The translations under genes were made by a program, and so were the position numbers. From Lichenicola cladoniae (GTDB lineage: Bacteria; Pseudomonadota; Alphaproteobacteria; Acetobacterales; Acetobacteraceae), in the NCBI RefSeq assembly GCF_013201075.1, contig NZ_CP053708.1, positions 2,299,501-2,363,500 of the forward strand: a DNA stretch of 64,000 nucleotides. The letters run 5' to 3'. Below the pieces are notes generated by a model. The model was not told the DNA's origin and ran no database searches. It worked only from the letters and a program-made list of their open reading frames with translations. Position 1 is the first letter of the stretch, and every line of letters begins with the position of its first letter. Shown piece after piece: positions 26,830 to 43,038 of this stretch.

Positions 26830-27014
26830 GCGCCTGGCAGCCCGTTGCCGGCACTCGCATCAAAGTCCGGAATATGCAGGCTGGTCAGTCCGAATATCAT
26901 CGGGTCCGACACTCCGTTCAGCGCGGCGATCCGGTACCACTGGGTGGCGTCGCCGAGCTCGCGCGACGCTACCGAGAACAGGTCGGTGCCGGCGACCAGG
27001 ATTGTCCGCATCAT
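26826..27014 (-). CDS. Small tail protein with LysM-like fold (gpX-like)
   Basis: This 62-residue protein matches the gpX/LysM-like tail proteins in size and pattern: an N-terminal GTDLFSVASRELGDATQWYRIA block, GVSDPMIFGLTSLHIPD, then a short Gly-rich tail. Start is one of two adjacent ATGs at 27014 and 27011. It lies five bases after the DNA-circulation-like gene and overlaps the gpD-like gene. Confidence 0.8.
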   Translation of the reverse strand: MMRTILVAGTDLFSVASRELGDATQWYRIAALNGVSDPMIFGLTSLHIPDFDASAGNGLPGA

Positions 27015-27019
27015 CGACC

Positions 27020-27925: not shown

Positions 27926-29103
27926 CGCGGAACCTGCGCACCGGAATAGATCGGCACCGCACGCAGATCGACCCGCGACGTGCCATGCGACGGCAACGAT
28001 GCCTGCCGCGCCTGCGACGAAGCAGTAAGCTGGCCGAGTCGTCGTCCATCCAGCATGACGTCTCCCGTGAGATGCACCACCAGTGGCGCGCCAGGGGCCG
28101 TACCCGGCTCGTCCGGCGACTGTCGGCCGGGATCATGCCCGAACGCTCCTGCAGGCCACTGCTGGCCGCCGGGAACCGCGCCCTGCTGCGGCCAGCGGGC
28201 GAGTGCTGCTGGCGGTGGAACCACGCGCCTCTGCAGCTCCATCGTAGCTGCAGCACCGCCGGCGGCTGCCGAGGCCGCACGGCTTGTGCCCGGGATCCTG
28301 CTCGCCGCCGTGATCATCCGGCCCGGCTGCATGATCACGGATGTAGATACGAACGGAGGGGTGGTCGGACTGTCGGGTCGAGCAGGAGCACCGGCATCCG
28401 GCACCGCCTCCGGTGACGGCAGGTGCCGGAATGGGGCATATGCCGACAGCTGGTCGCGCCGGGCCCCCGAACGGAAAAGTGCCGGCAATATGCCGATACT
28501 TTCTCCGGATCGACCGGGCATCTCTGGAGCGCCCTCCGCGTGAAGTATGGTTGTCCGGTCTATCGAGTCATGCCCGGCACGACCTGCCACCCGCGATGAC
28601 ACCGGGGGCGAAGCAGCAATACCGGGCCCGATCGCCGGGCGAGGCAGGCCTGCCGCCGCCAGTGCCCGCAGGATTGATGGCGATCCGGTTGGAACCGGAC
28701 CGGGATTCCGAAGTAGGCGCTGCTGACGGACTTCCGCGACACGCGAACCAACCGCCGGCCCCGACGCAACGCCGGACCGGACGTTCGACCTGCGACTATC
28801 TCCGACGATCGGTTCTTGCCGAGCCTCTATCGGCAGTCCGGGAGCCGGTGGCCGATCCGCTTCCGCCGGCGCAACAGCCTTGGCAACCGCGCCGGACCGA
28901 AACGCAGTCCGGCCAGGCACCCCCGCCCGAACCGCGCGGTCGTTCACGGCATGCGACTGCGAGAACAGCTTCACGACATGCCGCGCCACGCCTGTCGCGG
29001 CCGCGTCCACCGGACGCGATACAAGCTCGAGGTGCGGCGATAACGCCGGGGGCTGGCCGGGCAATGCGAGAAGCGATAGCGCCATGCGGTGCGACAGGAT
29101 CAA
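27922..29103 (-). CDS. Protein in tape-measure position
   Basis: This protein of about 393 residues follows the chaperone frameshift ORF, the place of the tape measure. A TTG at 29103 is preferred because GAGGGGGG lies seven bases upstream; ATG 29085 is the alternative. Unlike usual tape measures it is Pro/Ala/Arg/Ser-rich and low in predicted long helices. The C-terminus carries VHLTGDVMLDGRRLGQL, a block also seen at the ends of some tail length proteins. Length would predict a short tail. Function is assigned by position only. Confidence 0.6.
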   Translation of the reverse strand: MILSHRMALSLLALPGQPPALSPHLELVSRPVDAAATGVARHVVKLFSQSHAVNDRAVRAGVPGRTAFRSGAVAKAVAPAEADRPPAPGLPIEARQEPIVGDSRRSNVRSGVASGPAVGSRVAEVRQQRLLRNPGPVPTGSPSILRALAAAGLPRPAIGPGIAASPPVSSRVAGRAGHDSIDRTTILHAEGAPEMPGRSGESIGILPALFRSGARRDQLSAYAPFRHLPSPEAVPDAGAPARPDSPTTPPFVSTSVIMQPGRMITAASRIPGTSRAASAAAGGAAATMELQRRVVPPPAALARWPQQGAVPGGQQWPAGAFGHDPGRQSPDEPGTAPGAPLVVHLTGDVMLDGRRLGQLTASSQARQASLPSHGTSRVDLRAVPIYSGAQVPR

Positions 29104-29141
29104 GCGTCTACCCCCCTCGGTCCAGTGATACAGCGCGGGCT

Positions 29142-29635
29142 TCAGCGTCCGTCCGACCAGCTCAGCGACACCCAGTCGAACACCTGGCCGTCGAGTTCGC
29201 CGAGCGCTACGCAGCAGGCCAGCCGTCTTCGTTCCGACATCAGCATGACCTCGGACCACGGCACGCCCCCCTTCACCAGAAACAGGATCTGGCGAAGCAG
29301 GGCGTGCCGGCTCAGTTTTTTGCGGTATCGAGCTCGCTGCCGGACTGTGTGTTGTCCGGTTCATCGTCGGGGTAATGGACGCGCGACAGCGCATCCATGC
29401 CGCCGTTGCCGACCCGCCGACCGAGCTCGCGCACGGCTTCCTTGGTGGTCGGCATCATCACCGGCTTGCCGTCGATCGCGCTGACCGAGCAGATCATCAG
29501 CGCATAGCGCATCCAGGCCGCCGAGGATGCCGCAGATCCCGCGGCCTCGATCAGGTCGAGCATGTCCCCCGGGTTGGCCTCGCGCAGTGCGAAACGCCGA
29601 TCGTCGGCGCAGGTGATTTCCGCAGGCAGGACCAT
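29142..29635 (-). CDS. Predicted -1 frameshift tail chaperone (gpGT-like)
   Basis: This is the predicted product of -1 slippage at the heptamer A-AAA-AAC (29321-29315) near the end of the chaperone gene. After the slip, reading continues in the -1 frame for 57 sense codons (CTG AGC CGG...) to a TGA at 29144-29142, adding LSRHALLRQILFLVKGGVP... and ending WVSLSWSDGR. G/GT chaperone pairs made this way are known for many tailed phages and prevent premature tube assembly. The extension lies directly between the chaperone and the tape-measure-position gene. Confidence 0.75.
29312..29635 (-). CDS. Tail assembly chaperone (gpG-like)
   Basis: This 107-residue protein is encoded directly after the tail tube gene; its ATG overlaps the tube TGA. 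DDRRFALREANPGDMLDLIEAAG and TKEAVRELGRRVG are the recognisable blocks, matching short tail assembly chaperones. The last codons read GCA AAA AAC TGA, so the slippery heptamer overlaps the C-terminal codons. The 0-frame stop gives the G form, and the -1 slip gives the GT form. Confidence 0.8.
   Translation of the reverse strand: MVLPAEITCADDRRFALREANPGDMLDLIEAAGSAASSAAWMRYALMICSVSAIDGKPVMMPTTKEAVRELGRRVGNGGMDALSRVHYPDDEPDNTQSGSELDTAKN
29315..29321 (-). promoter_or_regulatory. Programmed -1 ribosomal frameshift site
   Basis: The minus strand reads GC-A-AAA-AAC-TGA, with codons GCA AAA AAC in the 0 frame. A-AAA-AAC is the canonical X-XXY-YYZ heptamer, among the most slippery in bacteria. The 0-frame stop follows immediately, and a 57-codon open -1 frame starts here. 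I did not identify a firm downstream stem-loop by eye. Confidence 0.8.
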
Positions 29636-30066
29636 CAGACCCGGTTCCTCTGGCTGGCGTAGAAACCGATCGTCTGCTTGACGATGTTTTCGGCCTGGTA
29701 GTGCCCCGCGCTGGTCAGGGTCAACGAGACGCCGATGAACTCGTACGTGCTGGTCGATCCATCCGGTTCCGACACGTACTGGTAGATCGTGCCCGACCCG
29801 ATCACGCCTGCGTTCCAGAACGCCGCCTCGATCGCGGCGATCAGGTCGTCGAGCGCCGACGATCCGCGATCGACATGGAAGTGCCCGCGCCATCCCGCCG
29901 GCGTATTGAACTCGATCGGCACGCTGTTGAGCGGATCCGAGCGCTGCCGGCGCACCTCCTGCGCCGCCTGGAAGCCGGTGACGTCACGCAGGTCCAGCCG
30001 TACGCCGTTCCAGAGCAGGACGACCTGGCAGTCGCGGCCGATGCTGTATGGATTACCCAAATTCAT
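29635..30066 (-). CDS. Tail tube protein
   Basis: This 143-residue protein follows the sheath gene and has the size and beta-rich pattern of myovirus tail tube proteins: DCQVVLLWNGVRLDLRDVTG, EFNTPAGWRGHFHVDRGSS and YEFIGVSLTLTSAGHY. GAAGGGA precedes the ATG. Its TGA overlaps the next ATG by one base, coupling tube and chaperone synthesis. Confidence 0.8.
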   Translation of the reverse strand: MNLGNPYSIGRDCQVVLLWNGVRLDLRDVTGFQAAQEVRRQRSDPLNSVPIEFNTPAGWRGHFHVDRGSSALDDLIAAIEAAFWNAGVIGSGTIYQYVSEPDGSTSTYEFIGVSLTLTSAGHYQAENIVKQTIGFYASQRNRV

Positions 30067-30117
30067 GTCCCTTCGTGGCGATCGCGATCAGTCGGAAACC
30101 GGTGGCCGCTCTATCGG

Positions 30118-31686
30118 TCAGCCGCCACCGCCCGCTTGCGTCACCGTCACGCTCTGGCCGCCCTGCAAGTTGACGATGAACTTCTCGTTGATGCCCTGGT
30201 AACGAACCTGGACATCGGCCTGGACGTAGCCCAGCGCGGTGCGGCTCTGCGGATTGTTGCCGGCGCCGCAAGCGACGGCATAGGGCAGGCTGCCATCGAG
30301 GCTTCCAAGAATCCCCTGCCCCAGCAGGTTCGAGAGCGTACCGAGCAATGTCGCGCGGATGTTCGACAACAACGTCGAGTTGATGATCGCGCCGACATAG
30401 CCTCCCATTCCCGCGGCGAGCGTCTCCGCCAGGAAGTTGGTCATGCGGGTATAGCTATCGCTGGCGATGATCGCGTTGCTCGAGCTGTTGTGCCCGCACC
30501 GGACCGCCCAATACGCCCCACCCGGGACCGGATTGCAGATGACGTCTATGCCGGCCGTGAACAGCGCCTGCAGTTCGGCCGACGAATAGGTCAGCGCCTG
30601 TCCACTCGATGCCAGGCCGCTCTTCTGGCTGCCGACGATGCCGGCCAGCCGCTTGTTCAGGCTGGATTGCTCGGGTGACTGGTTCGACAGGCAGCCGGCG
30701 GTAAAGCCCTGCGGACTGACGATCCGGGTCTGTGCATTGGCCTGGTCGTACCAGAACAGCCAGTCGCCGAACATCAGCTTGGTCGTATAGCTGTCGAGAC
30801 CGGATAGCTGCTTGGCCTGGATTGCGTTGGCGATATTGTCGCCGCTCGTCCCGACCAGGATCATGTAGATCCCTTCGGACTGGCCGAACGCACTCTGCAC
30901 CGTCCACTGGGTGGGATCGTCGCAATCGGACAGCATGCCGAGCGCGCAGCCCCGACCGCGCAGCACGTACATGCCGCTCCTGGGAAGGCCATCGACGCCG
31001 ACCAGGGTCGCCGGAACGACACCGTTCGTGCCATCGGTTCCGTTCAGCAGCAGCTGGTTGCTGATCGCGGCAGGTGGAATGCTGCTCCCTGGCCCGATCG
31101 ACCCGATGCACAAATTCGATGGACCGCGGGTGGCACCGGTGCCGTTGTTCACGGCGGCGACGAGCGCGGACCAGAACGCCAGCGTGTCACCCGGCATGCC
31201 GATATTATCGAACACCTCGGCCAGCGACCCCGGCATCTGGAGGGTCAGTTTCCAGGTGGCGGGCTCCGATCCGGCACCGAACGCAATGCTGATCTGGTTT
31301 CCCCTTGAGCCGGTACAGAGGGCGGTCAGCAGCATCGGATAGACACTGCCGGTGAAGTCGAGCGCATAGCTCGCGGCGACATCGGTACCGTCCGTCACAC
31401 GCACGCCGACGAACGAGGCGGCACCCTGCTGCTGCGCGCACGCGATCGGCGTACCCAGGTCGTAGGGGCGTGCCAGGACCGGACCGAACGCCGCGCCGTA
31501 GTCCGCCAGGCTACCCAGCACGACCGGCTGATTGACCGGTCCCCACGAGGCGGTTCCCACGATGCCGATCCGGTCGGTAGGCACCCCGTTGAGGGCGAGG
31601 GTCTGCGGTGATGCGATCTGCACGTAGAGGTCGGGAACGACCAGGGCTGCGGTATTCAATGCCCCGACCTGGGTGATCTGCGCCAT
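30118..31686 (-). CDS. Tail sheath protein
   Basis: This 522-residue sheath protein defines the element as contractile-tailed. The N-terminus contains GVPTDRIGIVGTASWGPVN and FGPVLARPYDLGTPI, and the C-terminus QADVQVRYQGINEKFIVNLQGG, which are hallmarks of sheath families. It forms the outer contractile cylinder on the tube encoded 51 bases downstream. Confidence 0.9.
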   Translation of the reverse strand: MAQITQVGALNTAALVVPDLYVQIASPQTLALNGVPTDRIGIVGTASWGPVNQPVVLGSLADYGAAFGPVLARPYDLGTPIACAQQQGAASFVGVRVTDGTDVAASYALDFTGSVYPMLLTALCTGSRGNQISIAFGAGSEPATWKLTLQMPGSLAEVFDNIGMPGDTLAFWSALVAAVNNGTGATRGPSNLCIGSIGPGSSIPPAAISNQLLLNGTDGTNGVVPATLVGVDGLPRSGMYVLRGRGCALGMLSDCDDPTQWTVQSAFGQSEGIYMILVGTSGDNIANAIQAKQLSGLDSYTTKLMFGDWLFWYDQANAQTRIVSPQGFTAGCLSNQSPEQSSLNKRLAGIVGSQKSGLASSGQALTYSSAELQALFTAGIDVICNPVPGGAYWAVRCGHNSSSNAIIASDSYTRMTNFLAETLAAGMGGYVGAIINSTLLSNIRATLLGTLSNLLGQGILGSLDGSLPYAVACGAGNNPQSRTALGYVQADVQVRYQGINEKFIVNLQGGQSVTVTQAGGGG

Positions 31687-31689
31687 CTG

Positions 31690-31872
31690 TCAGTGCTCCG
31701 CAGTCGCGTCGGGGCTCGCCGTCGCCACGAGCGGCGCAGGGATCACCACGAGCGAGTTGTTGCCGCCATCGAGAATGGCCCGGATCGCCACCGGATCGAC
31801 GACCAGGTCGCCACGCGCGTAGCGACCGAACGCGTGCAGGACGACCAGCATGGAAGGTGTGGGTCTGTTCAT
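31690..31872 (-). CDS. Small hypothetical phage protein
   Basis: This 60-residue protein lies between the GH99-like fusion gene and the sheath gene, three bases before the latter. LVVDPVAIRAILDGGNNSLVVIPAPLV suggests one hydrophobic beta segment. An ATG at 31872 (or 31878) would start it. I do not recognise a family. Confidence 0.6.
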   Translation of the reverse strand: MNRPTPSMLVVLHAFGRYARGDLVVDPVAIRAILDGGNNSLVVIPAPLVATASPDATAEH

Positions 31873-31882
31873 TGGCATCCCG

Positions 31883-33790
31883 CTAGTTGATGAGGTCGAG
31901 GCGGGGAACGACCGACTGTCGTACCGCTTCCGCGAGCGCGTGACCGACGGCGGCAATGCGCTGCGGGTCCGGGCCGGCCGGCGTGTACGTCGGCATCAGC
32001 CAGCCGCCTTCGGCCAGCTCGTTCCAGGCATAGATGAGGCCGATCTGCGCAGGACATGCGACGGGGTCGGCCACGATGCTGTTCACCATGTCCACGACAT
32101 GCGCGCCGAGGGCGAGACTGTCCGCGCGGCCGTAGTAGTTGCCGAGCCCGAGGCCCGCGGGGATCGGATAGAACGGCTGCGGCGTCTCGATCAGCGGCCG
32201 CTGATCCCAACCGCACATCGCAGTCGGGATCATCGCAAAACCGGATGATGCACGCGCCGCCCAATCCTGCCTCGCTGAAGCCGCAAGCGATGCGTAGGGC
32301 TGCTCGTTGCCGTTCAGTCGCGGTGTGGCGTAGGCGCCACACGCATCGGCGCCCGCAACGATCGCCGCATGCACGTTGGAATAATCGAGCAGCGACGCGC
32401 CGGACAGCCAGACTACATAGGGATTGCCGCCGCCCGCCGCCTGCACCTGCTGCCGCACGAACGCGATCGCCGCCGGTACGCCACCGGGCGGCAACCCCTG
32501 CGTCTGGTCCGCAGACGAGTCCAGGACCAGGTAGAGCGGTCGCCCGCCCAGCACGGTCATGTAGCCCGGCTGGGTCATCATCCTGATATCGCGCAGCAAC
32601 GGCGGCTGGTCGGCGCCGTCGCTGCCCCAGTTCGATGTCTGCCCGAGCATGCAGAAACGGAGGCCACCCCGATGCGCGCTGCCGAGATAAAGCTGTAGCG
32701 CCAGGCTGAGCGTGTCGTCCGGCTGGTAACTGTCGAATGCCCAGAACGACAACCCTGCCACGAGTGCCGCGGCGATTTCCGCATCCATCGTCGCCTGGGT
32801 CGCGCGTGGCCAGGATACGATGCCATCCACCACGGCGGCTTCCGGCGGAAGCCGGTCGTGATAAAGCGCGGGTGACAATACCGAGGCGCATTGCCGGTCG
32901 ATGGAATTCGCAGGGTCGTACCACGCATCGAAACGGACCGCCCCGAGCGGTGGCACCACCAGCCTCGGCGGAGGAACCACACAGCCGAACCCGACCTCGG
33001 GACCGGTGCCGCCCAGCGTGCCGACCCCGAACAGCATCTGCGCCCCGGTCATCACGATCGTGGTCGGATACTCGAGCAGGTAGTTCAGGTCCCGCCGGTA
33101 GAGGTTGGCGTTCTGCGAAACATCGGTCTCGAACGTTTCATGATACTGCAGGCGTGCGACCGTTCCGTCCGCCAGGTCGAGCCAGTCGATATTGGACAGG
33201 CCGTTATCGATCGCGGATGCAAGCAGGTCGCGTCCGATCGGGGTCGGACACCAGACCGCGATCATGATCCCCTGTTCCTGCCTGCGTGTTTCCATCATCG
33301 CGGTACCGCTTCCGACGATCCGCGCCGTCACCCGTGCACCGGAAACCGTCAGCGATGTGCCGACGACCGTTGCGCCGGAAATCATGCCGGCGAACGCCAG
33401 CGCCACCGACGCAGGCGTGTCGCCGGCCGCAAGCGTGACGGAATAGGCAACGCCGTCGACGGTCACCCCCGCAGTCTGTCCGGCACCGCCGATACCGCCG
33501 AACGACACCGTGTCCCCCAGCACATCGGCAGTCAGAGTCGGCGATGTCTGGGAAACGGTGTGCCAGGTGCGTGGATACCGCGAGGTATCGCGACTGCCGT
33601 GCTCGCGGCTGAACACGGTCACCGTCATGGTACCGTCGGCAAGATCGCCGTTCAGGCTCTGGTTGGACGGCCACCCCCGGTAGATCTTGACGATCGTGCC
33701 GCTGATGCTCGGCTGCGCCAGGCCAGCCGGGTAGATGATCGTCTCGACCAGACGGCAGAGCGCTGTTTCGACGTCGGAGATATCCGCCAT
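31883..33790 (-). CDS. Tail-completion-like protein fused to a GH99/WbsX-like domain
   Basis: This 635-residue two-part protein occupies the position of the tail completion protein. Residues 1 to about 270 (ADISDVETALCRLVETIIYP, SNQSLNGDLADGTMTVTVFS, then QNANLYRRDLNYLLEY) look like a phage tail or connector domain. From about 280 on it resembles a glycoside hydrolase 99/WbsX-like TIM barrel: VRFDAWYDP, LVAGLSFWAFDSY, YVVWLSGASLLDYS and IYAWNELAEGGWLMPTYTP. The last block matches the WNEWAEG-type motif of that family. Fusion to a virion protein is unusual; it could act on a surface glycan. The ATG at 33790 follows GGAGA. Confidence 0.75.
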   Translation of the reverse strand: MADISDVETALCRLVETIIYPAGLAQPSISGTIVKIYRGWPSNQSLNGDLADGTMTVTVFSREHGSRDTSRYPRTWHTVSQTSPTLTADVLGDTVSFGGIGGAGQTAGVTVDGVAYSVTLAAGDTPASVALAFAGMISGATVVGTSLTVSGARVTARIVGSGTAMMETRRQEQGIMIAVWCPTPIGRDLLASAIDNGLSNIDWLDLADGTVARLQYHETFETDVSQNANLYRRDLNYLLEYPTTIVMTGAQMLFGVGTLGGTGPEVGFGCVVPPPRLVVPPLGAVRFDAWYDPANSIDRQCASVLSPALYHDRLPPEAAVVDGIVSWPRATQATMDAEIAAALVAGLSFWAFDSYQPDDTLSLALQLYLGSAHRGGLRFCMLGQTSNWGSDGADQPPLLRDIRMMTQPGYMTVLGGRPLYLVLDSSADQTQGLPPGGVPAAIAFVRQQVQAAGGGNPYVVWLSGASLLDYSNVHAAIVAGADACGAYATPRLNGNEQPYASLAASARQDWAARASSGFAMIPTAMCGWDQRPLIETPQPFYPIPAGLGLGNYYGRADSLALGAHVVDMVNSIVADPVACPAQIGLIYAWNELAEGGWLMPTYTPAGPDPQRIAAVGHALAEAVRQSVVPRLDLIN

Positions 33791-33836
33791 GTCCGGGCCG
33801 TCTCCTGAGGCATTGCGCTGATGGTCGCGGGCGGCG

Positions 33837-34478
33837 TCAGGTCGTCGCCAATCCGGCCACGAGTTTCCAGCCGAACGGTGACAGCTCAGCGCTGACGATC
33901 TGATAGCTCTGTCCCGCCGGATCGCGCACACGCATCCCGAACGTGAGAACCACGCGCGGAATCGGTGGCGCCAGCACGTCGTAATAGGCCGCGCGTGTAT
34001 CGCTCGGCAGCTTGGTCACGTCCTGGCCTGCCCGGCTTCGCACCGACATGCTGACCGGCCAGCCCTGCGCCACCACCGCGTCCGTATCGCTGGTCCGGCC
34101 ACCGTAGCCATTGGTGCCGGCACTGGTCGCGACCGCGGTGGTCAGGATGTCCAGGGTCTGGTCACACAGGACGCAGAGTGCCGGCCGTAGCGGCTCGATC
34201 CTGGCGATGAAATGGATCTCGTCGCCAACCAGGTAATCGCCTTGCCGGACCAGTGAAGGGTCCGCCAGCAACGCGGCGTAGCTGTGGGTCGGCTGCGCCG
34301 TCGACACGAACCGAAAATCCGGCTTCACATCGAAGGCGCAAAAAATCGTCCCGAACGGTGAGCCGGCTACCGGCCTATCCGCGGTCGTCGGGCGGTAGAG
34401 CATGTGGTCCGCGCCAACGATGGAAGCGGCCCGTGCGAGCCCGTATGCGATCCTCGCGCTGATCGTGGTCTGCAGCAA
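33837..34478 (-). CDS. Hypothetical phage head-tail protein
   Basis: This 213-residue protein starts at a TTG (34478) with TAGGAGA upstream. LADPSLVRQGDYLVGDEIHFI and VLTFGMRVRDPAGQSYQIVSA are beta-rich segments. It is located between connector-type genes and the fusion protein, so a head-tail joining role is likely, but I cannot name the family. Confidence 0.6.
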   Translation of the reverse strand: MLQTTISARIAYGLARAASIVGADHMLYRPTTADRPVAGSPFGTIFCAFDVKPDFRFVSTAQPTHSYAALLADPSLVRQGDYLVGDEIHFIARIEPLRPALCVLCDQTLDILTTAVATSAGTNGYGGRTSDTDAVVAQGWPVSMSVRSRAGQDVTKLPSDTRAAYYDVLAPPIPRVVLTFGMRVRDPAGQSYQIVSAELSPFGWKLVAGLATT

Positions 34479-34495
34479 GTGCGCTGTCTCCTAGG

Positions 34496-35047
34496 TCAGG
34501 AAATTGAAATGACCCCGCCATTGTTCCAGAGCTGGCTGGTGCCGCTCGCCGGCTGCGCGAGCGGCAACGCGGCCATCGTCACCGTGCTGCCGAACGTCAG
34601 CACCTGCGCGGAAAGAAGTCCGCCCGTGCTCTGCAACGGAACGCCTGCCGTCAGCACGCGTCCGTCCGGCGTGCGTGCGACCACGCTTCCGGCCGGCCAC
34701 GTGAAGGTCGCGTTGCGGCCGGCCTGGATGTCGGAAAACAAAAAGCTGCTGCTGCCGCCTGCCATCGTGATCGTGTTGCCGGTCCCGACGACGAGCGGCA
34801 CCGGCAGCGGCAGCCAGAGCAGCATGTTGCCGCCGGCCTGCGCATCGAACAGCGCCATGAAGCCGATCCTGCCCCACGCGGCCGTCGCAGGTCCAACCGT
34901 ACCACCACCGATATTGCGGACGATGCCGTTGTCGACGTCACGGAGCACGAACGGCCGCCTGGCATAGGAGGGGTCGATCGGCTCGGTCAGGATGCCCGCC
35001 TGCACCACCAGGCCGTAGCCCAGCCATCCGCTGAAGAAGATCGCCAT
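34496..35047 (-). CDS. Hypothetical phage structural protein
   Basis: This 183-residue protein (ATG 35047, GGGAGG seven bases upstream) is hydrophobic and beta-rich. It contains NMLLWLPLPVPLVVGTGNTI and ends LWNNGGVISIS, an ending often seen in fibre- or decoration-type phage proteins. Position among the head genes suggests a decoration or connector component; the family is not recognised. Confidence 0.55.
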   Translation of the reverse strand: MAIFFSGWLGYGLVVQAGILTEPIDPSYARRPFVLRDVDNGIVRNIGGGTVGPATAAWGRIGFMALFDAQAGGNMLLWLPLPVPLVVGTGNTITMAGGSSSFLFSDIQAGRNATFTWPAGSVVARTPDGRVLTAGVPLQSTGGLLSAQVLTFGSTVTMAALPLAQPASGTSQLWNNGGVISIS

Positions 35048-35081
35048 CTCCCGTCCTCCCAATCCCCGCTGAAAACGCGAG

Positions 35082-35483
35082 CTAGATGATGATTGCCGAT
35101 ACCGATCGCATGGCCGGACCGGCCGGGATGCCGATGAAGCCGATCAGACGACGCGCCCAGTCGTCGAACAGCCTGGTCCGTTCCGCGACCTCGGAGCTGT
35201 TGTGCTTCCAGACAGCGGCCTGGTCGGTATCGAGATTGACCGACGCGGCCGGAACAGCCTGTTCCAGCCCATACAGCGTTGCCAGGAACTGCCGGACCAC
35301 CTGGAGTTCGCCCGGCGCCAGGTTGGTCAGCCGGAACTCGAGCGTCCCGAACGCCTCGAAGAAACGCCAGGACTGGAAGCCGCTGCTGCCGGCGCCATAG
35401 GCCGGATATCCGCAGAAGCGGCGTACGTCGATCCGCTCCGCATCGGTAAGCGGCGTGGCTGCGAGGCCTGTCGATCCTGACAC
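35082..35483 (-). CDS. Hypothetical head-tail connector protein
   Basis: This 133-residue protein starts with a GTG at 35483 preceded by AAGGAG. DAERIDVRRFCGYPAYGAG and RFFEAFGTLEFRLTNLAPGE suggest the small helical connector proteins encoded after capsid genes. A strong hairpin separates it from the capsid gene. Confidence 0.6.
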   Translation of the reverse strand: MSGSTGLAATPLTDAERIDVRRFCGYPAYGAGSSGFQSWRFFEAFGTLEFRLTNLAPGELQVVRQFLATLYGLEQAVPAASVNLDTDQAAVWKHNSSEVAERTRLFDDWARRLIGFIGIPAGPAMRSVSAIII

Positions 35484-35515
35484 CCCGATCTCCTTGCTGC
35501 ATCGATAATCCGGAT

Positions 35516-35555
35516 GCCGCCCCGGCGTCGCCCGTCACAGCGACGCCGGGGCGGC
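35516..35555 (-). repeat. Perfect 16-bp inverted repeat after the capsid gene
   Basis: The arms at 35516-35531 and 35540-35555 are exactly complementary, with an 8-base loop. It sits directly between the capsid stop and the next gene, and no T-tract follows in the direction of transcription. It may be an mRNA stabiliser or a processing hairpin that limits readthrough from the highly expressed capsid gene. Confidence 0.75.
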
Positions 35556-35563
35556 GTATGGTC

Positions 35564-36937
35564 CTACAGGCTCTCGATCACCACGCCGCGCTTCAGGTAG
35601 CTGTTGGTCGCGGTCGGAATGATCGACGTGCTCGCCGTGGCATCGGTCGGCAGCGCATATCCGCCGATCCAGTACCAGGACTGCGCGATGATCTGCTTCA
35701 GCCGGTCGAGCGGCTCCCGCGTGACCATGACGACGTTGTCGACCCGTTCCAGCAACGACTGTTCCGCATCGGGAATGTCGCTATGGCCGGTATCGGCATA
35801 GTCGCCCTCGATCAGGGCGCCCTTGCCGCAGACGATCGCGCGGTGGATCGCGCCGGCGCCCAGCGAGGTCTGCTGCGGCGCTTCGGTCGTCGGGATGAAG
35901 CGGACCCCGAGCAGCTCGACCACCGAGCCCGCGCTGTAGGTCTCGGTTCCATACGCGCCACGATAGAGATACTTGAAGTCTCCGTCGCGGAACAACCCGA
36001 GCATCTGCTGGTCGTCGAGATAGCAGTGATACGAGCCGTCGACAGTCGGCACGTTGTTCATCCGCAGCGCGGCCACCGCGGACAGCACGGTCTGGATCCC
36101 AAGCGTATCGCCGGGTACGTAGCTGTTCGCGCCGTAGGTCCCGGTCGGCGCCACCAGGCCGGCTGTGCTCAGCCTTCCGTTTGGCCGCAGCACCAGCGGT
36201 GCGGTGGCGGCGACCACCGGCTGGGCATTCGTGCCGTCCGACACACTGATGTTGGTCGAGAAGCTCAGCGTGCCCGACACCCCATTCGGCGCCGTCGACA
36301 CGCTGTTGGCATCGGCCGTGCTGTTGACGAGCGTATAGGCGTTGCTGCCCACCGTGACCGTCATGCCGCTGGTGGCACCGACGCCGATGACCTGGCCGCC
36401 GGTGTTCATGACGTTCTGGAAGCCGCGGATATCGTCGACGATGATCGTCTTGCCCGCCGCCCCGAGCGTCGTAGTGACGCGCGTGTTGCCGCCGAGATAG
36501 CCGCCGACGCCGCCGGCCGCCCCGCCGAACAGCGCATTGCGCGCGATCCGGTCGAGGGACTGCATTGCCTGCACGCCGTTGGTCCGCGCATTGGCCAGGA
36601 ACTGGCTGGCGATACCGACGCCCTCGCTGACCATGTTGAGGTCGATGGTGTCGCCGTACTGGTTGATCGTCAGCGTGTACTGCTCGATCGTCCAGGCCGA
36701 CGGTGTCATGCCGTTGTCGAAGTTGGTGTTCACGCTGGGCGACATCGGCACGCTGACTAGCGCCTTCAGGCCCTTGCGGGTCTTGGTGATCGTCTCGCCG
36801 ATACGGTTGGGAAAGATCTCGCGATCGGCGATCGAGCGAAATCCGAGACGCGACTGCAGCCCGTCCTGAAACTCACGGGCAAGGAAGCCCTGCTGGATGA
36901 TCGGCTGAAGCTGGGACGGGAAGTTCTGGATCGGCAT
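35564..36937 (-). CDS. Phage major capsid protein
   Basis: This 457-residue major capsid protein is of the P22 coat/N4-gp56-like type. The N-terminus (QLQPIIQQGFLAREFQDGLQ), GDTIDLNMVSEGVGIASQFL and the C-terminal VVMVTREPLDRLKQIIAQSW are structural hallmarks. Between about 190 and 255 there is a Ser/Thr/Val-rich insertion likely to form an extra surface domain. It follows the scaffold gene, and hairpins flank it on both sides. Confidence 0.85.
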   Translation of the reverse strand: MPIQNFPSQLQPIIQQGFLAREFQDGLQSRLGFRSIADREIFPNRIGETITKTRKGLKALVSVPMSPSVNTNFDNGMTPSAWTIEQYTLTINQYGDTIDLNMVSEGVGIASQFLANARTNGVQAMQSLDRIARNALFGGAAGGVGGYLGGNTRVTTTLGAAGKTIIVDDIRGFQNVMNTGGQVIGVGATSGMTVTVGSNAYTLVNSTADANSVSTAPNGVSGTLSFSTNISVSDGTNAQPVVAATAPLVLRPNGRLSTAGLVAPTGTYGANSYVPGDTLGIQTVLSAVAALRMNNVPTVDGSYHCYLDDQQMLGLFRDGDFKYLYRGAYGTETYSAGSVVELLGVRFIPTTEAPQQTSLGAGAIHRAIVCGKGALIEGDYADTGHSDIPDAEQSLLERVDNVVMVTREPLDRLKQIIAQSWYWIGGYALPTDATASTSIIPTATNSYLKRGVVIESL

Positions 36938-36960
36938 GCGGTGATGTCACCTTCTGTTGG

Positions 36961-36988
36961 CCCGTGCGCACACTGTCGTGCACACGGG
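36961..36988 (-). repeat. Imperfect hairpin between scaffold and capsid genes
   Basis: The arms CCCGTGCGCAC (36961-36971) and GTGCACACGGG (36978-36988) pair with one mismatch over 11 bp around a 6-base loop. There is no T-tract. It occupies the 88-base gap between scaffold and capsid genes. Confidence 0.6.
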
Positions 36989-37025
36989 TGATCCTTCATG
37001 GGAGCGGTATGGTGTCGCGAATGCT

Positions 37026-37568
37026 TCAGCGCGGAGCGGAAAGAAGGCGATCCCGTTCCGCCTGCCAGGCGTCACGCGACAGGCTGCGCGCGTCGAGGAT
37101 GCTCGGTTGCGCCGGCGATGGTGGCCGCTGCAACTGCGCCGTGGTGCCGGCTGCCACGCCGCCCCGGTCGACGGCGAACAAGTACGGCTTCTGCTGGCGA
37201 AGCGCGGTAATCACCGCCTCTACCCCCTGCACCTCGCCGGCCTCGTTCAGGCTGAGCCCGGCGGTATCGGCGAGCCGCAGCCCGTCGAGATCGACGATCC
37301 CAGAGCGGATGGCGTGCGTCCTCAGTTCCGCATGCATCACCCTCCCGTCCGCATCCGCGCGCGCGGTCGCCACGGTCTGGTCCCGATCGCGTATCGCGGC
37401 CGCGCAGGCAGATTCACGCTCCCCGACTGCGATCCGGGCCTGCTCGCGATAGCGGGCCACCTCCCGGCGCAGCTTCTTCTCGTATTCGGTTATCTCGCGG
37501 GGAAGCTCGCTCGCCTCCACCACTGCTTCGTCGGTCGGTTCGAGCATGTCCGGGCTCTGCTCTGCCAT
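37026..37568 (-). CDS. Phage scaffolding protein
   Basis: This 180-residue protein is acidic at the N-terminus (MAEQSPDMLEPTDEAVVEAS), with a highly charged helical middle (EITEYEKKLRREVARYREQA) and a basic C-terminus that can bind capsid. This layout and its place between portal and capsid genes fit a head scaffolding protein. Confidence 0.75.
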   Translation of the reverse strand: MAEQSPDMLEPTDEAVVEASELPREITEYEKKLRREVARYREQARIAVGERESACAAAIRDRDQTVATARADADGRVMHAELRTHAIRSGIVDLDGLRLADTAGLSLNEAGEVQGVEAVITALRQQKPYLFAVDRGGVAAGTTAQLQRPPSPAQPSILDARSLSRDAWQAERDRLLSAPR

Positions 37569-37591
37569 AGGCTGGACAAGTCCTTCTCAAT

Positions 37592-37635
37592 GCCATCGCC
37601 CGCGCCGTCACATGACGGCGCGGGCCCGCGATGGC
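37592..37635 (-). repeat. Strong hairpin between portal and scaffold genes
   Basis: The inner arms CCCGCGCCGTCA (37599-37610) and TGACGGCGCGGG (37613-37624) form a perfect 12-bp stem, and outer arms around GCCATCG/CGATGGC extend it. There is no downstream T-tract. It fills the 85-base gap after the portal gene. Confidence 0.7.
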
Positions 37636-37653
37636 CGAAAACTTTTGCGGTCG

Positions 37654-39066
37654 TCAGGCGGCATCCGGCGGTTGGACCGGCTCGGCCAGCCCATACAGGG
37701 GAGCCACCACCGCCAGCGCCGCCTGCCGGTCGATCACGCCCGCTTCCAGCAGGGTGACGATGCCGCCAGCCTGTGCCTGCCGGTCCGCCGGGCTTGCCGG
37801 GAACCAGCTCGGCCAGATCAGGCCGAGGCCCGACGCCATGATGGTCTTCTCGAGGTTGCCGCCGATCAGCAGCCCCTCGCCCAGCCGGTCCGACGCCTTG
37901 CACAGCATCTCCATCAGACTGAGCAGGCCGCCGTCGCCGTAGGAGATCCGCAGCCGATCGGCCAGCCAGATCAGCCCCTGGCACATCAGCTCGATCGCCC
38001 GACCGCTCTGTGCGGTGCCGAGCCGGTCGCCGTGGGCCCGGTTGCCATGCATGGCCTCCAGTGCGATCGCCCGAAGCTCCTGCACGTGCGCCAGCACCGC
38101 GGCGGCGGCATTTCCGTTGATCTCCAGCAGCTTGGCATCGCCCTCCGGCGGCAGGGTGAGCGCCGTGGCAGCACCTCCGGACCGCACTGCGCCACCGCCA
38201 TGCTGGCCCGCCGACGGGTCCTTCAGCACCAGCGTCGGGTCCGATCCGTATTTCAGCCCGCGTCCCGCCTGCGAAAGCAGGTAGTCGGCCTCGATCACCG
38301 TATCGATCGAGGCGGCGAAGGTACAGGTGCCGTCCGGCCCATCCGGATCATGGCCGCCGCTACCGGAGATGTTGCGTATCCACACGATCGGCACGAACCC
38401 GAGCTCGTGCACCACCGTGCGGTCCCGATCGAGCTCCATGCGGCCCGGATCGGACGCCACCGAAAGCGGCGCAAACCATTGTTCGGCAGTGTCGTTCCAC
38501 ACCCGCTTGAACCAGTATGGCCCAGAGCCCGGCTCGACATCGTAGCCCTGCGCCCGGAGATCCCGGTCATCGACCTTGTAGCGCTCGGTCACGCTCGACA
38601 ACGCGCGCGGATTATCCTGCCGCCAGACCGGAGTCAGGTACTTCGTGGATAGCACCTCGAAGAACGGGCGTCCCTCGACGATCCGCATTTGGATCGCAAC
38701 CGAACCCACCGAGCCCCGGGTCGCCGCCTCGAGCATGGTCTCGTTCAGCCGTGTTTCCCGGACCACCTGGGACAGCAGGGCTACGGTCCGGCTGTCCGTT
38801 GCCTTGATCGACGGCCAGTGTCCCTCGCTGAACAGCAGGGATACGGAATCCTCCACCACCACCCGGCACAATCCCGTACGAACCGACGGACGCCGCTCGT
38901 CCAGCGGCACGTACTCCCCTGCGTCGCTTCGTTCCTTGGAGAAGGGATAGGACAATACGTCGTACTGCCGTCCCTCCAGGACCGCCTCGAGTGCGGCAAG
39001 CCGCGCACTCCGTCGAGGCATCGACGCGTCGCAGGGCATTCGCGCCTGCAATGCAAGCCAATCCAT
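37654..39066 (-). CDS. Phage portal protein
   Basis: This 470-residue portal protein has the pattern of the SPP1/P22-like group: FSKERSDAGEYVPLDER, TVVHELGFVPIVWIRNISG, then SQAGRGLKYGSDPTLVLKD and GGNLEKTIMASGL. It forms the dodecameric DNA entry ring. It begins four bases after the terminase stop. Confidence 0.88.
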   Translation of the reverse strand: MDWLALQARMPCDASMPRRSARLAALEAVLEGRQYDVLSYPFSKERSDAGEYVPLDERRPSVRTGLCRVVVEDSVSLLFSEGHWPSIKATDSRTVALLSQVVRETRLNETMLEAATRGSVGSVAIQMRIVEGRPFFEVLSTKYLTPVWRQDNPRALSSVTERYKVDDRDLRAQGYDVEPGSGPYWFKRVWNDTAEQWFAPLSVASDPGRMELDRDRTVVHELGFVPIVWIRNISGSGGHDPDGPDGTCTFAASIDTVIEADYLLSQAGRGLKYGSDPTLVLKDPSAGQHGGGAVRSGGAATALTLPPEGDAKLLEINGNAAAAVLAHVQELRAIALEAMHGNRAHGDRLGTAQSGRAIELMCQGLIWLADRLRISYGDGGLLSLMEMLCKASDRLGEGLLIGGNLEKTIMASGLGLIWPSWFPASPADRQAQAGGIVTLLEAGVIDRQAALAVVAPLYGLAEPVQPPDAA

Positions 39067-39070
39067 GCGT

Positions 39071-40858
39071 TCATCGCTCCATGAAGCTGCTGGTCGCCGT
39101 CGCGGCGGAGTTCACGCTTCGCCGGCCGAACAGGTAATATCCGCTTGCATCCACCAGGTGATCGAATCCCAGCCCCTTGTCCGGCTCGTTGGTGCCTTCC
39201 TTGTAGACAAGCCGCTCGTAGGCCTCGATCGATCGCGTGCAGCGTGGATCCACCGTCGCCAGCACGGTACCGTCAGCCGATCTGAAATGCCGGTTCATCA
39301 CGTTCAGCCGGTCCCGCACCGGCGGATGGGCCCGCAGCGCACACACGACGAACCCCTTCTCGCGCAGGATGCCGATATCGGTCTTGCCGCCCGCCGAGCT
39401 ACGTCGTTGCGCACCGGCAGGATCGGGATACACGGTGATGTGGTCGAGCATCTTTCGGCCCGGCTCGAATCCGTCCCGGCCGAACCGCCGTGCGATCTCA
39501 TCGGCCATCTCGTCGGTGTTCGAGGTCGGCAGGATGATCTCGTCGATCTGCCGCGTCGTCTCGCCCTCTTCCTGCCAGACCGTTGCGGACATGGGATTGA
39601 CGTTGAAGTCCATTCCCACATGCAGCGGCCGGTTCGGATCGTGCGCCGAACGCCTGACGTTCTCGGCACGACTGAAGGCGTAGACGACGCGGCCCGCATA
39701 GGTTTCGAAACTGGCCCCGTATTCCTGGCGGAACACCCGTGCGTCCAGTTCCTTTTCTGCCGCTTGCAGCTCCTCCGGCGGCACCTGGCCGCCATCCGCG
39801 GTGGTGAACAGGAACGAGCGGTAGCTGGGATCGCCGCCCGGCTGGCCCATTATGTAGGCGTCCCGGAAATGGTCGAACCCCTTGGGGGTCCCGATGAACA
39901 AGGCGTGCCCGCGCGACGTCGACAGCATCGGCCGGATCACCTCGCGCCATGCGGACGGCCGACAATCCGCCCATTCGTCGCCGCCGAAAAACCAGAGGCC
40001 CGAACCGCGCAGGTTTTCCGAGGCGTCGAGCCCGACCAGGCGGATGACATGCCCCGAACGCAGCCTGATGCTGCAGTTCGTCTCGCTGGGCGCACCATCG
40101 ATCCAGCTTCTCGGAATGGCGCGCTTCACCCGGCCCCACATGACCCGCTTGGCCTGCAGGAAAGTCGGCGCGCCGTACCAGATCTCGTTCTCAGTGCCGA
40201 TATTCTCCCTGACCGCCAGCCGCGCCGCTCGGCGCAGCTCTTCCGCCATCAGGAAGGTGTTGTGCGTCGCGATCAGCGAGCGTCCACACAGATACAGCCG
40301 CGATAGGCTATCGACCTGGATGCAACGCACCGCGGTCGTGTCCACTGGACGTATCGCGCGGATCAGATGGAAGCCGGCCCTTCGCCTGTCGTCGGATCCG
40401 CTCCATCCGGCCGGCAGGAGATCGGGAATGTGAAACTTCAATCCCATCGCGAGCCCGTTCCGGATCAGCCGCGTCGTCAGCAATTTCGTGCCGACCGTCC
40501 CTGCCACGGAGACCGGCCATAGATGCTCGTCGTCGGCAGTGATTTCGCCGCCGTCGCCGAATAGGATCGTGTTGCATGGGCGCCCGAGCATGATGTGCGT
40601 GGCATATGTCACCACGCACACTTGCCCGAGTTCGTCGAACAGGCGCATGCCCGGCTCGACATCGCCCATTCTGGTCCATCCGTCGGGTCCAGGCAGCATC
40701 GTGTCCAGTGCGAGCGCCTTTCCGAACCGGCGGCCGCAGACCGCGACGCGGAACCTCGCGGTCTGGTTCCATCCCGCCTCGTAGATCGCCCATTGCGCCG
40801 GACTGAGAGCGGGCCGCGCCCAGGCGCTACCGGCCTGGATCGGCCCTTGGCGGATCAT
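39071..40858 (-). CDS. terL: Terminase large subunit with a class 3-type mini-intein
   Basis: This is a 595-residue precursor of the packaging ATPase-nuclease. Walker A reads CGRRFGK, and then an intein of 153 residues interrupts before TFLMAEELRRAA; excision would rejoin GRRFGKTFLMAEEL and leave about 442 residues. The Walker B region is LWFFGGDEW. The nuclease-domain acid is in VGMDFNVNP. ATG 40858 has GGAG six bases upstream and overlaps the small terminase gene; a GTG ten codons upstream is less likely. The terminase would be inactive until spliced, because the intein splits the ATP-binding loop. Confidence 0.9.
   Translation of the reverse strand: MIRQGPIQAGSAWARPALSPAQWAIYEAGWNQTARFRVAVCGRRFGKALALDTMLPGPDGWTRMGDVEPGMRLFDELGQVCVVTYATHIMLGRPCNTILFGDGGEITADDEHLWPVSVAGTVGTKLLTTRLIRNGLAMGLKFHIPDLLPAGWSGSDDRRRAGFHLIRAIRPVDTTAVRCIQVDSLSRLYLCGRSLIATHNTFLMAEELRRAARLAVRENIGTENEIWYGAPTFLQAKRVMWGRVKRAIPRSWIDGAPSETNCSIRLRSGHVIRLVGLDASENLRGSGLWFFGGDEWADCRPSAWREVIRPMLSTSRGHALFIGTPKGFDHFRDAYIMGQPGGDPSYRSFLFTTADGGQVPPEELQAAEKELDARVFRQEYGASFETYAGRVVYAFSRAENVRRSAHDPNRPLHVGMDFNVNPMSATVWQEEGETTRQIDEIILPTSNTDEMADEIARRFGRDGFEPGRKMLDHITVYPDPAGAQRRSSAGGKTDIGILREKGFVVCALRAHPPVRDRLNVMNRHFRSADGTVLATVDPRCTRSIEAYERLVYKEGTNEPDKGLGFDHLVDASGYYLFGRRSVNSAATATSSFMER
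40259..40717 (-). other. Mini-intein in terminase (class 3 features)
   Basis: Measured from the first intein residue, this 153-residue segment starts ALALDTMLPGPDGW and ends RSLIATHN, before a Thr at +1. Ala replaces the usual first Cys/Ser. The block B-like segment ITADDEHLWPV holds the Trp two residues after His. The block F-like segment RCIQVDS holds a Cys, and the Thr just before the terminal His-Asn completes the W-C-T set that defines class 3 inteins. No homing endonuclease domain is present, so it is a mini-intein. Confidence 0.88.
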
Positions 40859-41321
40859 CGTCAGCTCCAATCTCCCTGATGGCTGCACCGGAATCGGGTA
40901 TTGCCGGTGCGGTTCCCGATCGGGTCTGGAACTTCCCCGGCTTGAACCCGCGCAGCAGCAGCACCAGCAGCGGATCGCTGTAGCGCCTCACGATCATCGG
41001 TTCGTGCGTGACCGGATCCAGGACCGGCAGACCCGCCTTCAACACCGGCTGTTCAATGCCCTCCAGTGCCCGCCTCCATGCCTCCGCTTCCAGCAGGTCG
41101 GCCGCATCGTCCAGCGCCTCGTCGTAGGCGATCGCGAAAGAGGCATCGCGTTGCTTCATGACGTTGATCTGCCGCCTGGTCAGTCCGCTTTCCTTGCACG
41201 CCGATGAAGGATTGCCGGTACGCCCGAGCACCGACAGAAAACTCTCCTGCGCAACCAGCGCGGCTGCCCCATCCCTGGCGGCGATGATCGGTTCCGGATG
41301 TCCGGAAGACGTGTCGTCCAT
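40827..41321 (-). CDS. terS: Terminase small subunit
   Basis: This 164-residue protein has the helix-turn-helix style N-terminal region of small terminases (LGRTGNPSSACKESGLTRRQ, then INVMKQRDASFAIAYDEAL) and the block RRYSDPLLVLLLRGFKPGKF before an acidic/basic tail. It recognises the packaging start site. It overlaps terL by about 32 bases. Confidence 0.85.
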   Translation of the reverse strand: MDDTSSGHPEPIIAARDGAAALVAQESFLSVLGRTGNPSSACKESGLTRRQINVMKQRDASFAIAYDEALDDAADLLEAEAWRRALEGIEQPVLKAGLPVLDPVTHEPMIVRRYSDPLLVLLLRGFKPGKFQTRSGTAPAIPDSGAAIREIGADDDPPRADPGR

Positions 41322-41328
41322 CGCGCCG

Positions 41329-41736
41329 TCAGGCGTAACGCACCGCGCCGACCCTGCGTCCTCGCGACGAGGTGCAGGCCATCAGGTTGCTCTGCACCGA
41401 CGGTCCGTCCTCGAAACGGCGAACCTGCTGTTCCCGCTTGCATGCAATCGCGATCCTCGCCCTGACCGCATCCGGCAATACGCCCAGCCGCGTCAGGTTC
41501 GCCGTCCCGAAACGCTTGATCGGCACGCACCGGATCACGACGTCCTGCATCGGCAGGCCGCAGAGGGCCATGTCCGACCAGTGCTCCGGCACGATGTCGG
41601 CCCGGTGCCGGGCATCGCTCTGGCTCTCCACCCGTAGCAAGGTCAGTTCCGCGGTATTGATCTCGTGAACGATGTAGACCGATGCTCCAAAGGCAACCAC
41701 GTCCCCACACACGATCTGAGCCGAGTTCGTGAACAT
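41329..41736 (-). CDS. Hypothetical protein, possibly MazF/PemK-like fold
   Basis: This protein of about 135 residues is the first gene after the terminator-like hairpin. The ATG at 41736 has AGGTG six bases upstream; a GTG three codons earlier also exists. The pattern (IVCGDVVAFGASVYIV at the start, then DVVIRCVPIKRFGTANLTRL and GVLPDAVRARIAIACKRE) resembles the arrangement of PemK/MazF toxins. I would treat this only as a fold guess; no antitoxin is visible. It might be a regulator or early late-gene protein. Confidence 0.5.
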   Translation of the reverse strand: MFTNSAQIVCGDVVAFGASVYIVHEINTAELTLLRVESQSDARHRADIVPEHWSDMALCGLPMQDVVIRCVPIKRFGTANLTRLGVLPDAVRARIAIACKREQQVRRFEDGPSVQSNLMACTSSRGRRVGAVRYA

Positions 41737-41760
41737 AGAGATCACCTATCTTCGGAGTTC

Positions 41761-41793
41761 AATAAAAATGCCCGCCGGATTTCTCCGGCGGGC
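41761..41793 (-). terminator. Intrinsic terminator/attenuator ahead of the late genes
   Basis: On the minus strand, the perfect 10-bp stem GCCCGCCGGA/TCCGGCGGGC with a 4-base loop (41770-41793) is followed by ATTTTTATT. It lies between a strong promoter match and the start codon at 41736, so it would end most transcripts before the late operon unless bypassed. It can also end the upstream regulator transcript. Confidence 0.85.
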
Positions 41794-41815
41794 ACAACAA
41801 TTTCAGTATGTAGAA

Positions 41816-41844
41816 TTTATAACCTGACCCGGGTCCACCGTCAA
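41816..41844 (-). promoter_or_regulatory. Sigma-70-like promoter upstream of the late genes
   Basis: On the minus strand, TTGACG (41844-41839) and TATAAA (41821-41816) are separated by exactly 17 bases. The predicted start of transcription lies about 15-20 bases upstream of the hairpin at 41793-41770. The surrounding DNA is clearly AT-richer than its neighbours. Confidence 0.7.
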
Positions 41845-41864
41845 TCATTTGTTAACCGTAACGA

Positions 41865-42431
41865 CTAATCTATCGGATGAGCCTGCCTGCGATTGGTACG
41901 ACGCCGATCGATCGAGGCGTATTGTTCCGCAAGCTGCTCCAGGAGGAACGCCATCTGCGCCGCGATCTTTTTCCGCCCGTTGGAATCGCCGGGCAGCAGT
42001 TTCTCGGCAATCACCGAAAAGGAAAGCTCATCGACCAGAAGCAGCTTCAACCGGATTTCCGAGCACAGTCCTAGTCCTTCGCGAACCGTGCGACAGCGTG
42101 CAATCGCGGCGGCTCGTGCGAGCATCGACGCATGGATATCCGGCGCCCTGCCGGAGCCCCGTGCTTCCGGATCGCGCGCGCCGATGACGCCCATGACATA
42201 GTCGCGATACCAGCGCTCGGCAGCGGATGTGGTTGGCCGAGCCACGTCATCGGATCCCGTCAGGCTGGCAACGCCACCGACCAGGCGCTGAACGTTCTCC
42301 TGTATTCGCGCGTCCTGTCCCTTGCCGAGCCGTTCCGGCGTCGCCCTTTCCGCCCGGGGCGTCTCCAACCTGCGTGCCTGTGACATCAGCAGGTCGGAAG
42401 AATCCGCAAGTGCTCGTCTCTCGATTTTCAT
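41865..42431 (-). CDS. Hypothetical protein of the phage-like regulatory region
   Basis: This protein of about 188 residues starts at ATG 42431, after AGGA. It contains RRALADSSDLLMSQARRLE and ends with a helix-rich part (LGLCSEIRLKLLLVDELSFS, VIAEKLLPGD, MAFLLEQLAEQYAS). It could be a DNA- or protein-binding regulator, but I do not recognise a family. Its transcript appears to end at the hairpin at 41793-41770. Confidence 0.55.
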   Translation of the reverse strand: MKIERRALADSSDLLMSQARRLETPRAERATPERLGKGQDARIQENVQRLVGGVASLTGSDDVARPTTSAAERWYRDYVMGVIGARDPEARGSGRAPDIHASMLARAAAIARCRTVREGLGLCSEIRLKLLLVDELSFSVIAEKLLPGDSNGRKKIAAQMAFLLEQLAEQYASIDRRRTNRRQAHPID

Positions 42432-42500
42432 CATCAGTCCTGGCTGCAACGTCGTACGCATCGGCGCGATCTTCTGCTTGAGCATCGTGATCGATAGCCG

Positions 42501-42776
42501 CTACATCGCGTATCTCGGCAGGATCGGGGTCATGCCGTTGATGGCACTCCAGGTGATCGGATGTCCGGCGCGGAGGGGTGCCGCACCGGCATCCTCGCGG
42601 TCACGGGAGCAGAGGGACCGTGCGGTCCTCTGGTTGAGCATCTTTGCGCGACGTTGCGCGAAACTTCGGCTGACACCGAGTTCGAGCGCGGCCTTTCGCA
42701 ACGTGGCGCCTCGCTTGTCGAGGAATGCCGTTAGGCAGGCGTCTTGATCAGGCGTCCAAGGGAGCGCACGGGGCAT
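42501..42776 (-). CDS. Small DNA-binding protein, SANT/homeodomain-like HTH
   Basis: This protein of about 91 residues has an N-terminal HTH (LPWTPDQDACLTAFLDKRG, then ATLRKAALELGVSRSFAQRR) that looks like a Myb/SANT or GcrA-like recognition fold. The C-terminus (AGHPITWSAINGMTPI) is shared with many alphaproteobacterial phage regulators. The ATG at 42776 has GGAC seven bases upstream; a GTG at 42806 is possible. It is the first gene of the phage-like block and a candidate regulator. Confidence 0.65.
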   Translation of the reverse strand: MPRALPWTPDQDACLTAFLDKRGATLRKAALELGVSRSFAQRRAKMLNQRTARSLCSRDREDAGAAPLRAGHPITWSAINGMTPILPRYAM

Positions 42777-43038
42777 GTTTGGGTCCGCATTTGCTGTGAG
42801 CGACACCAGATGCTGACAAGTCGTTAGTGAGCGTACAAGAAAAATTTGCGCGTAATAACGAGATTTTTACGTAACGTCGTCTTTGGGACAGCACGGCGTG
42901 CTTGATATCGCCAAGTCAACAGACGCTATATACCTTCGCATCCGTACTATAGCCCAAGTACATGTCATTCGTACCACGTTTGACCGCAAAAGCGCCGGCG
43001 GCCCATAATTTACTAACGATTTGGTAGGGACAGCTCGG
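42777..43038. other. AT-rich regulatory gap upstream of the phage-like block
   Basis: This 262-base region is visibly AT-richer than the rest and contains TTACGTAA palindromes and a TATAGT hexamer, but I cannot place a full promoter with confidence. It could hold operators for the HTH protein. No integrase gene or att-like repeat is present. Confidence 0.45.

Follow-up and report, generated by a model that had tools for sequence, protein, structure and literature searches.

Class 3 inteins have no nucleophile at position 1 and are defined by Trp at B:12, Cys at F:4 and Thr at G:5, together with His at B:10, a terminal His-Asn pair and a +1 residue that is usually Ser or Thr and rarely Cys (available text of PMC5222942). 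Solved examples are the mycobacterial DnaB1 mini-inteins (MchDnaB1, PDB entries 6rix and 6riy; MsmDnaB1, 6bs8), whose host is a helicase encoded by a cellular gene. In phages, the TerL1-a inteins of mycobacteriophages lie between the Lys and the Thr of the terminase P-loop; across mycobacteriophages, inteins of both class 1 and class 3 occur (available sections of PMC5050341). Two intein-bearing terminases are also mentioned in the accessible part of PMC7947584. Six phage terminases in public records that carry class 3 inteins were read; in three of them, from Escherichia phage ECD7, Synechococcus phage B23 and Vibrio phage 489E54-1, the intein lies at the Lys|Thr site.

Here, we describe an intein in a 64,000-nucleotide stretch of the genome of Lichenicola cladoniae (Acetobacteraceae; NZ_CP053708.1, positions 2,299,501 to 2,363,500), which we call the window and within which all coordinates below are numbered unless another sequence is named. 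Its host protein type and insertion point are those of the TerL1-a inteins (as far as the available text of PMC5050341 describes them), whereas the hosts of the latter are free phages and the cluster in the window looks chromosomal. The inteins of ECD7, B23 and 489E54-1 share with it the class residues and the Lys|Thr site, but their 330-345 aa leave room for an endonuclease, compared with the 153 aa of the window copy. The mycobacterial DnaB1 inteins resemble it in whole-length sequence and fold, with 36-38% identity in fold alignments, and share the His65/Trp67/Cys/Thr-His-Asn layout, Cys48 and the absence of an endonuclease (parts of PMC6195587 and PMC7664689), whereas the host in the window is a phage terminase. 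A mini-intein of about 140 aa in the terminase of the Marinobacter phage-plasmid phiTHAF39 is 35.9% identical over the whole 153 residues; its host differs, being a GpA-type terminase on a plasmid. This intein, class 3-like and located at L205:1501-1920, is in a record whose annotation makes no mention of an intein. Inteins at the Lys|Thr site of phage terminases are already known, so that the window copy adds a member. Among open-licence PMC papers, we found no recognisable report that combines inteins with gene transfer agents, with Acetobacteraceae or with PBSX.

The interrupted gene encodes a terminase large subunit (39071..40888, minus strand, as are all terminase, intein and cluster features of the window given below). 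It has 605 codons when read from a GTG and 595 from the ATG at codon 11, and the PHROG terminase large subunit family covers residues 211-593 of the open reading frame (profile search, E 8.1e-30). The 153-residue intein (40259..40717) corresponds to residues 58-210 of the 605-aa frame and lies in frame exactly between the Lys and the Thr of the Walker A motif. It follows an N-extein that ends in CGRRFGK (40718..40888) and precedes a C-extein that starts with TFLMAEEL and includes the stop codon (39071..40258). The junction codons are GGA-AAG|GCG-CTC on the N side and CAC-AAC|ACC-TTC on the C side, and reading through 39071-40888 revealed neither a stop nor a frameshift. We thus reproduced the insert and its ends as the initial annotation had given them. 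Its predicted mature product of 442 residues holds if translation starts at the ATG of codon 11, and fails from the GTG of codon 1, which gives 452.

That excision would restore an intact ATP-binding loop, as had also been proposed, is borne out by insert-free related terminases, which read CGRRFGKTF with nothing missing. We collected 161 related terminase loci (of 355 viral and 113 genome loci, the best 80 each, plus the window). An insert is present in 9 of them, and in 150 the GK(T/S) loop runs through without a break (146 GRRxGKT and 4 GRRxGKS); the remaining two consist of one locus with an undetermined residue there and one that is truncated. Because L002 and L106 seem to come from a single genome, the nine occupied loci count as eight distinct copies; the intein alignment and the extein tree were made without L002. 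The segment could have turned out to be a normal domain of homologous terminases; this is not so, as 150 of the 161 loci lack it. Some PHROG terminase models also match the insert, and these models probably include inteins.

Several lines of evidence bear on the class of the element. Searched against PDB sequences with phmmer, the insert matches three class 3 DnaB1 inteins along its length (E 2.2e-22, 5.8e-22 and 1.2e-21; entries 6rix, 6bs8 and 6riy). An AlphaFold model built with 12 aligned inteins as input (mean pLDDT 92.0, pTM 0.85) has a predicted Hint fold resembling that of solved class 3 inteins, and the top seven Foldseek matches of this model are all chains of the class 3 entries 6rix, 6riy and 6bs8. 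The class residues are all in place. The insert begins with Ala1, so that Cys, Ser and Thr are absent from position 1, and is followed by Thr at +1. His65 is the block B histidine (40523..40525), Trp67 is the first residue of the WCT triplet and stands in EHLWP (40517..40519), Cys132 is its cysteine and the presumed first nucleophile, in RCIQVDS (40322..40324), and Thr151-His152-Asn153 supply the threonine of the triplet, the penultimate His and the terminal Asn (40259..40267). These residues (His65, Trp67, Cys132 and the final three) are invariant in the 12 aligned inteins, the window copy included. We ruled out a chance origin of the layout: shuffling the 153 residues 200,000 times gave no match to a class 3 layout pattern, which was written after the sequence had been seen.

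A class 1 or class 2 intein, or another Hint domain that merely resembles class 3, is hardly credible given these data. It is true that the class 1 intein gp41-1 is also among the Foldseek matches and that it carries Thr where class 3 inteins have the threonine of the WCT triplet (available part of PMC7664689). However, the seven class 3 chains, each with E 1.9e-11 or better, all score ahead of gp41-1 (6qaz, E 8.8e-8), and Trp67, Cys132 and Thr151 are all present and invariant.

The curated profiles are silent on the insert: Intein_splicing of Pfam (in a whole-genome scan), Pfam-A and NCBIfam gave no intein match. The initial annotation had proposed that a search without an intein-HMM hit would speak against the element, and to the letter this is what Pfam and NCBIfam returned. 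We do not count this miss as a negative, because such a match does not define the class and two full-length class 3 relatives also lack one to Intein_splicing; the modelled fold and the matches obtained directly with solved class 3 inteins outweigh it. Judged by its sequence matches and predicted fold, the insert is a class 3 mini-intein. The earlier reading of a class 3-type mini-intein splitting Walker A thus stands, on sequence matches, modelled fold, class residues and empty-site relatives, and so does its account of the residues (Ala1, a THN end followed by Thr, Trp in EHLWP, Cys in RCIQVDS). Its remark that class 3 is a small class understates the matter, as one query gave 369 related loci in viral contigs.

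The same site is occupied in seven other distinct copies, found in four genomes of the same genus, in Endobacter medicaginis, in Lichenicoccus roseus and in one metagenome contig. These copies also have the class residues, and their inteins are 204-224 aa long, compared with 153 in the window. The extra linker of the longer copies aligns with the second LAGLIDADG half of full-length class 3 inteins, LIRGLMDSDG lying, for example, opposite LLRRLCRRYG. In a profile comparison, this remnant matches the endonuclease with E 5.2e-7 and a probability of 92%, a score reached by none of 100 column-shuffled controls; when 20 residues of shared splicing tail are removed, the match falls to E 2.2e-4 and a probability of 45%, again with 0 of 100 shuffles. 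The LAGLIDADG_3 profile matches two full-length members (L097 and L098) and gave no match on four remnant-bearing inteins. In the window intein, a 62-residue linker without a LAGLIDADG match in Pfam stands in place of the endonuclease between blocks B and F. For comparison, 73 of the best 80 of 369 viral-contig relatives have a recognisable intein end, set by a simple pattern so that a few may be wrong: 15 are at most 190 aa long, 56 exceed 260 aa, and the two in between are both already-counted copies of the window lineage.

These lengths and remnants would fit a history in which a LAGLIDADG-bearing intein entered the terminase lineage, the endonuclease was then lost, leaving its decayed second half in the seven other copies, and the window copy shed what remained. 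The window copy is best read, from these alignments, as the last step of a stepwise endonuclease loss. Since the larger copies of the relatives carry a decayed mobility part, the intein appears to have a long history of inheritance, without a recent jump.

Full-length inteins occur elsewhere in the family. The genome of L. cladoniae itself has a second, class 3-type intein of 350 aa with a LAGLIDADG_3 match (G000:C1:1476938-1477987, i.e. L097:1579-2628), which follows the NGK of a P-loop in a 962-aa open frame resembling another terminase. Three other genera of Acetobacteraceae have full-length class 3 inteins of about 365 aa (L088, L090 and L091, in genomes G024, G019 and G051, respectively), placed at the QVG of the P-loop in terminase-like open frames of 1030-1106 aa.

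By analogy with the chemistry described for class 3 (parts of PMC5222942, PMC7664689 and PMC6195587), we infer that the window intein splices. Once translated, it would adopt the Hint fold within the Walker A loop. Cys132 would attack the Lys57-Ala1 bond and take over the N-extein, which would then be received by Thr+1; cyclisation of Asn153 would release the intein, and an acyl shift would link the two extein parts and restore the ATP-binding loop. From the position of the insert, a terminase that has not spliced would be unable to use ATP and could not package DNA. The initial annotation had drawn the same conclusion about packaging and had raised a possible control point, for which the sequence speaks neither way, although a cysteine known as a redox partner in a mycobacterial class 3 intein is conserved (see below). 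Selection on the gene was assessed by dN/dS, whose values are rough because most dS exceed 1: the C-extein gave 0.09-0.16 in four comparisons and the intein 0.15, 0.35 and 0.41 in three (the fourth was saturated), both consistent with purifying selection, which also acts on the genes adjoining the terminase. Purifying selection on the C-extein and the intein suggests that the cell makes use of the terminase product and, by extension, that the intein splices.

A less favourable reading holds that the intein is dead for splicing, or capable of cleavage only, within the terminase of a decaying prophage, so that the joined terminase is never made. The window copy has indeed lost linker sequence that the seven other distinct copies keep, and its intein reaches a higher dN/dS (up to 0.41) than the C-extein. 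However, the class residues are all retained, the 153 aa are close to the 145 aa of the splicing-active MchDnaB1, purifying selection acts on the exteins and the adjoining genes, and the open reading frame has neither a stop nor a frameshift. We regard loss of splicing as very improbable.

The terminase is part of a phage-derived cluster of endolysin-like, tail fibre, baseplate, tail, head and packaging genes (20482..42806). Among these are the terminase small subunit (40827..41321; phrog_4044, E 1.2e-24), the portal protein (37654..39066; phrog_145, E 5.5e-9), the major head protein (35564..36937; phrog_1357, E 1.4e-53) and a contractile tail sheath (30118..31686; phrog_23, E 2.9e-41). No integrase or replication gene was found among the cluster proteins scanned. 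The endolysin-like gene has a relative only in Lichenicoccus among the stretches fetched. An Rfam scan of 20-44 kb gave nothing beyond a tRNA-Ser gene (43563-43655), which lies between the cluster and gatB and is a possible old attachment site.

Of 299 Acetobacteraceae genomes, 132 (from 54 of 102 genera) have a relative of the major head protein, and nine of these genomes have more than one match; loci L215-L229 are among these relatives. The order of the tail and portal genes is kept in several distant genera, where the terminases differ. We do not claim one family-wide element of the gene transfer agent type: in G259 and G029, the two genomes whose neighbourhood we read, the terminase beside the head protein is of another type and has no insert. 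Gene transfer agents are fully endogenised, without replication or integration genes of their own, and form particles that deliver packaged host DNA but are too small for the genome that encodes them. They are inherited vertically and co-diversify with the host (available text of PMC9662315). Judged by sequence, the cluster could be a long-resident prophage, a PBSX-like particle or a gene transfer agent.

The surroundings of the cluster are partly conserved. Its left flank (methionyl-tRNA synthetase to BacA) is common to the window, G003, Endobacter (G005) and Lichenicoccus (G100), and its right flank (gatB, gatA, Hsp90) to the window, G001, G002 and G003. Only G003 has both flanks together with the window; the stretches fetched for G001 and G002 lack the left one, and gatB of Endobacter and of Lichenicoccus is on another contig. 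Small trees were built for gatB, the head protein, the portal, the C-extein and the intein (seven genomes each) and for the sheath (six). All six, gatB included, group G001 with G002 and G100 with G005. Within the genus, the gatB, portal and C-extein trees conflict, with branch support of 0.88-0.97. In a tree of 18 inteins, the window lineage forms one clade (support 0.89), with the Endobacter intein falling among those of the window genus (0.84-0.86). The extein tree, made of the 8 occupied terminases and the 40 best non-identical of 148 empty ones, places the occupied terminases in one clade (0.996) that also contains the uninterrupted L107. The position of L107 inside this clade implies either loss of the intein or a second gain. 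This terminase, which reads GRRFGKSFL, comes from a 3,556-base contig of a metagenome-assembled genome labelled Granulicella and sits beside Endobacter in the tree.

Since the flanks are partly shared and the trees largely match that of gatB, descent looks mainly vertical, and the simplest reading of these comparisons is mainly vertical descent of cluster and intein, with some exchange possible. As part of a phage-derived cluster with a contractile tail, the intein would thus have been passed on mainly by chromosomal inheritance. The comparison of flanks and trees lowered the likelihood of a recent prophage, which we keep as a rival. Alternatively, a working class 3 intein could be merely carried by an infecting phage, in an ordinary, long-resident and still mobile prophage. 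Related uninterrupted terminases do sit in phages and prophages, the cluster has an endolysin-like gene, one flank differs in every relative except G003, and some trees conflict. This has to be weighed against the flanks shared on the left by four genomes (window, G003, Endobacter, Lichenicoccus) and on the right by four (window, G001, G002, G003), against the two groupings that recur in all six small trees including gatB, and against the lack of an integrase among the scanned cluster proteins. We find a mobile prophage unlikely, if still worth serious consideration. The account as a whole, namely a class 3 mini-intein with the corresponding splicing chemistry, a history of endonuclease loss and mainly chromosomal inheritance, is in our opinion very likely the best explanation. 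Since the host cluster looks chromosomally fixed, spread of the intein by infection is less likely, and the residence of an intein in such a seemingly fixed cluster may be new.

One more residue deserves attention. Oxidation of the M. smegmatis DnaB1 intein links its Cys48 to the catalytic cysteine by a disulfide; this Cys48 is required for splicing and is termed non-conserved in the available text of PMC6195587. The equivalent Cys48 of the window intein (40574..40576) is found in all 12 aligned inteins and in all 80 of the best 80 of 369 viral-contig loci, one of whose two search patterns itself contained Cys48. Among the loci retrieved with the other pattern, 67 of 67 have it, 62 of them lacking the Cys48-containing pattern. 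Such conservation may reflect the need for splicing alone. By analogy with M. smegmatis, we hypothesise that the terminase may be redox-gated through Cys48. A stronger proposal is that usefulness explains why three genera have retained the intein although its endonuclease no longer works: under oxidative stress, a Cys48-Cys132 disulfide would keep the terminase of a chromosomal GTA-like particle unspliced until reducing conditions return, and Cys48 would be general to P-loop class 3 inteins. We consider this doubtful.

Taken together, three stages of endonuclease decay are on view: inteins of other terminases, one of which this genome also has, retain the full endonuclease, seven other copies of the window lineage keep a decayed remnant, and the window copy has lost it completely; such a visible series may be new. 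Because all relatives examined have Cys48, the redox idea can be put to the test beyond mycobacteria. The value of the locus is as a test case for how an intein that no longer homes can persist, whether because clean deletion from so essential a loop is not feasible or because splicing under certain conditions brings a benefit.
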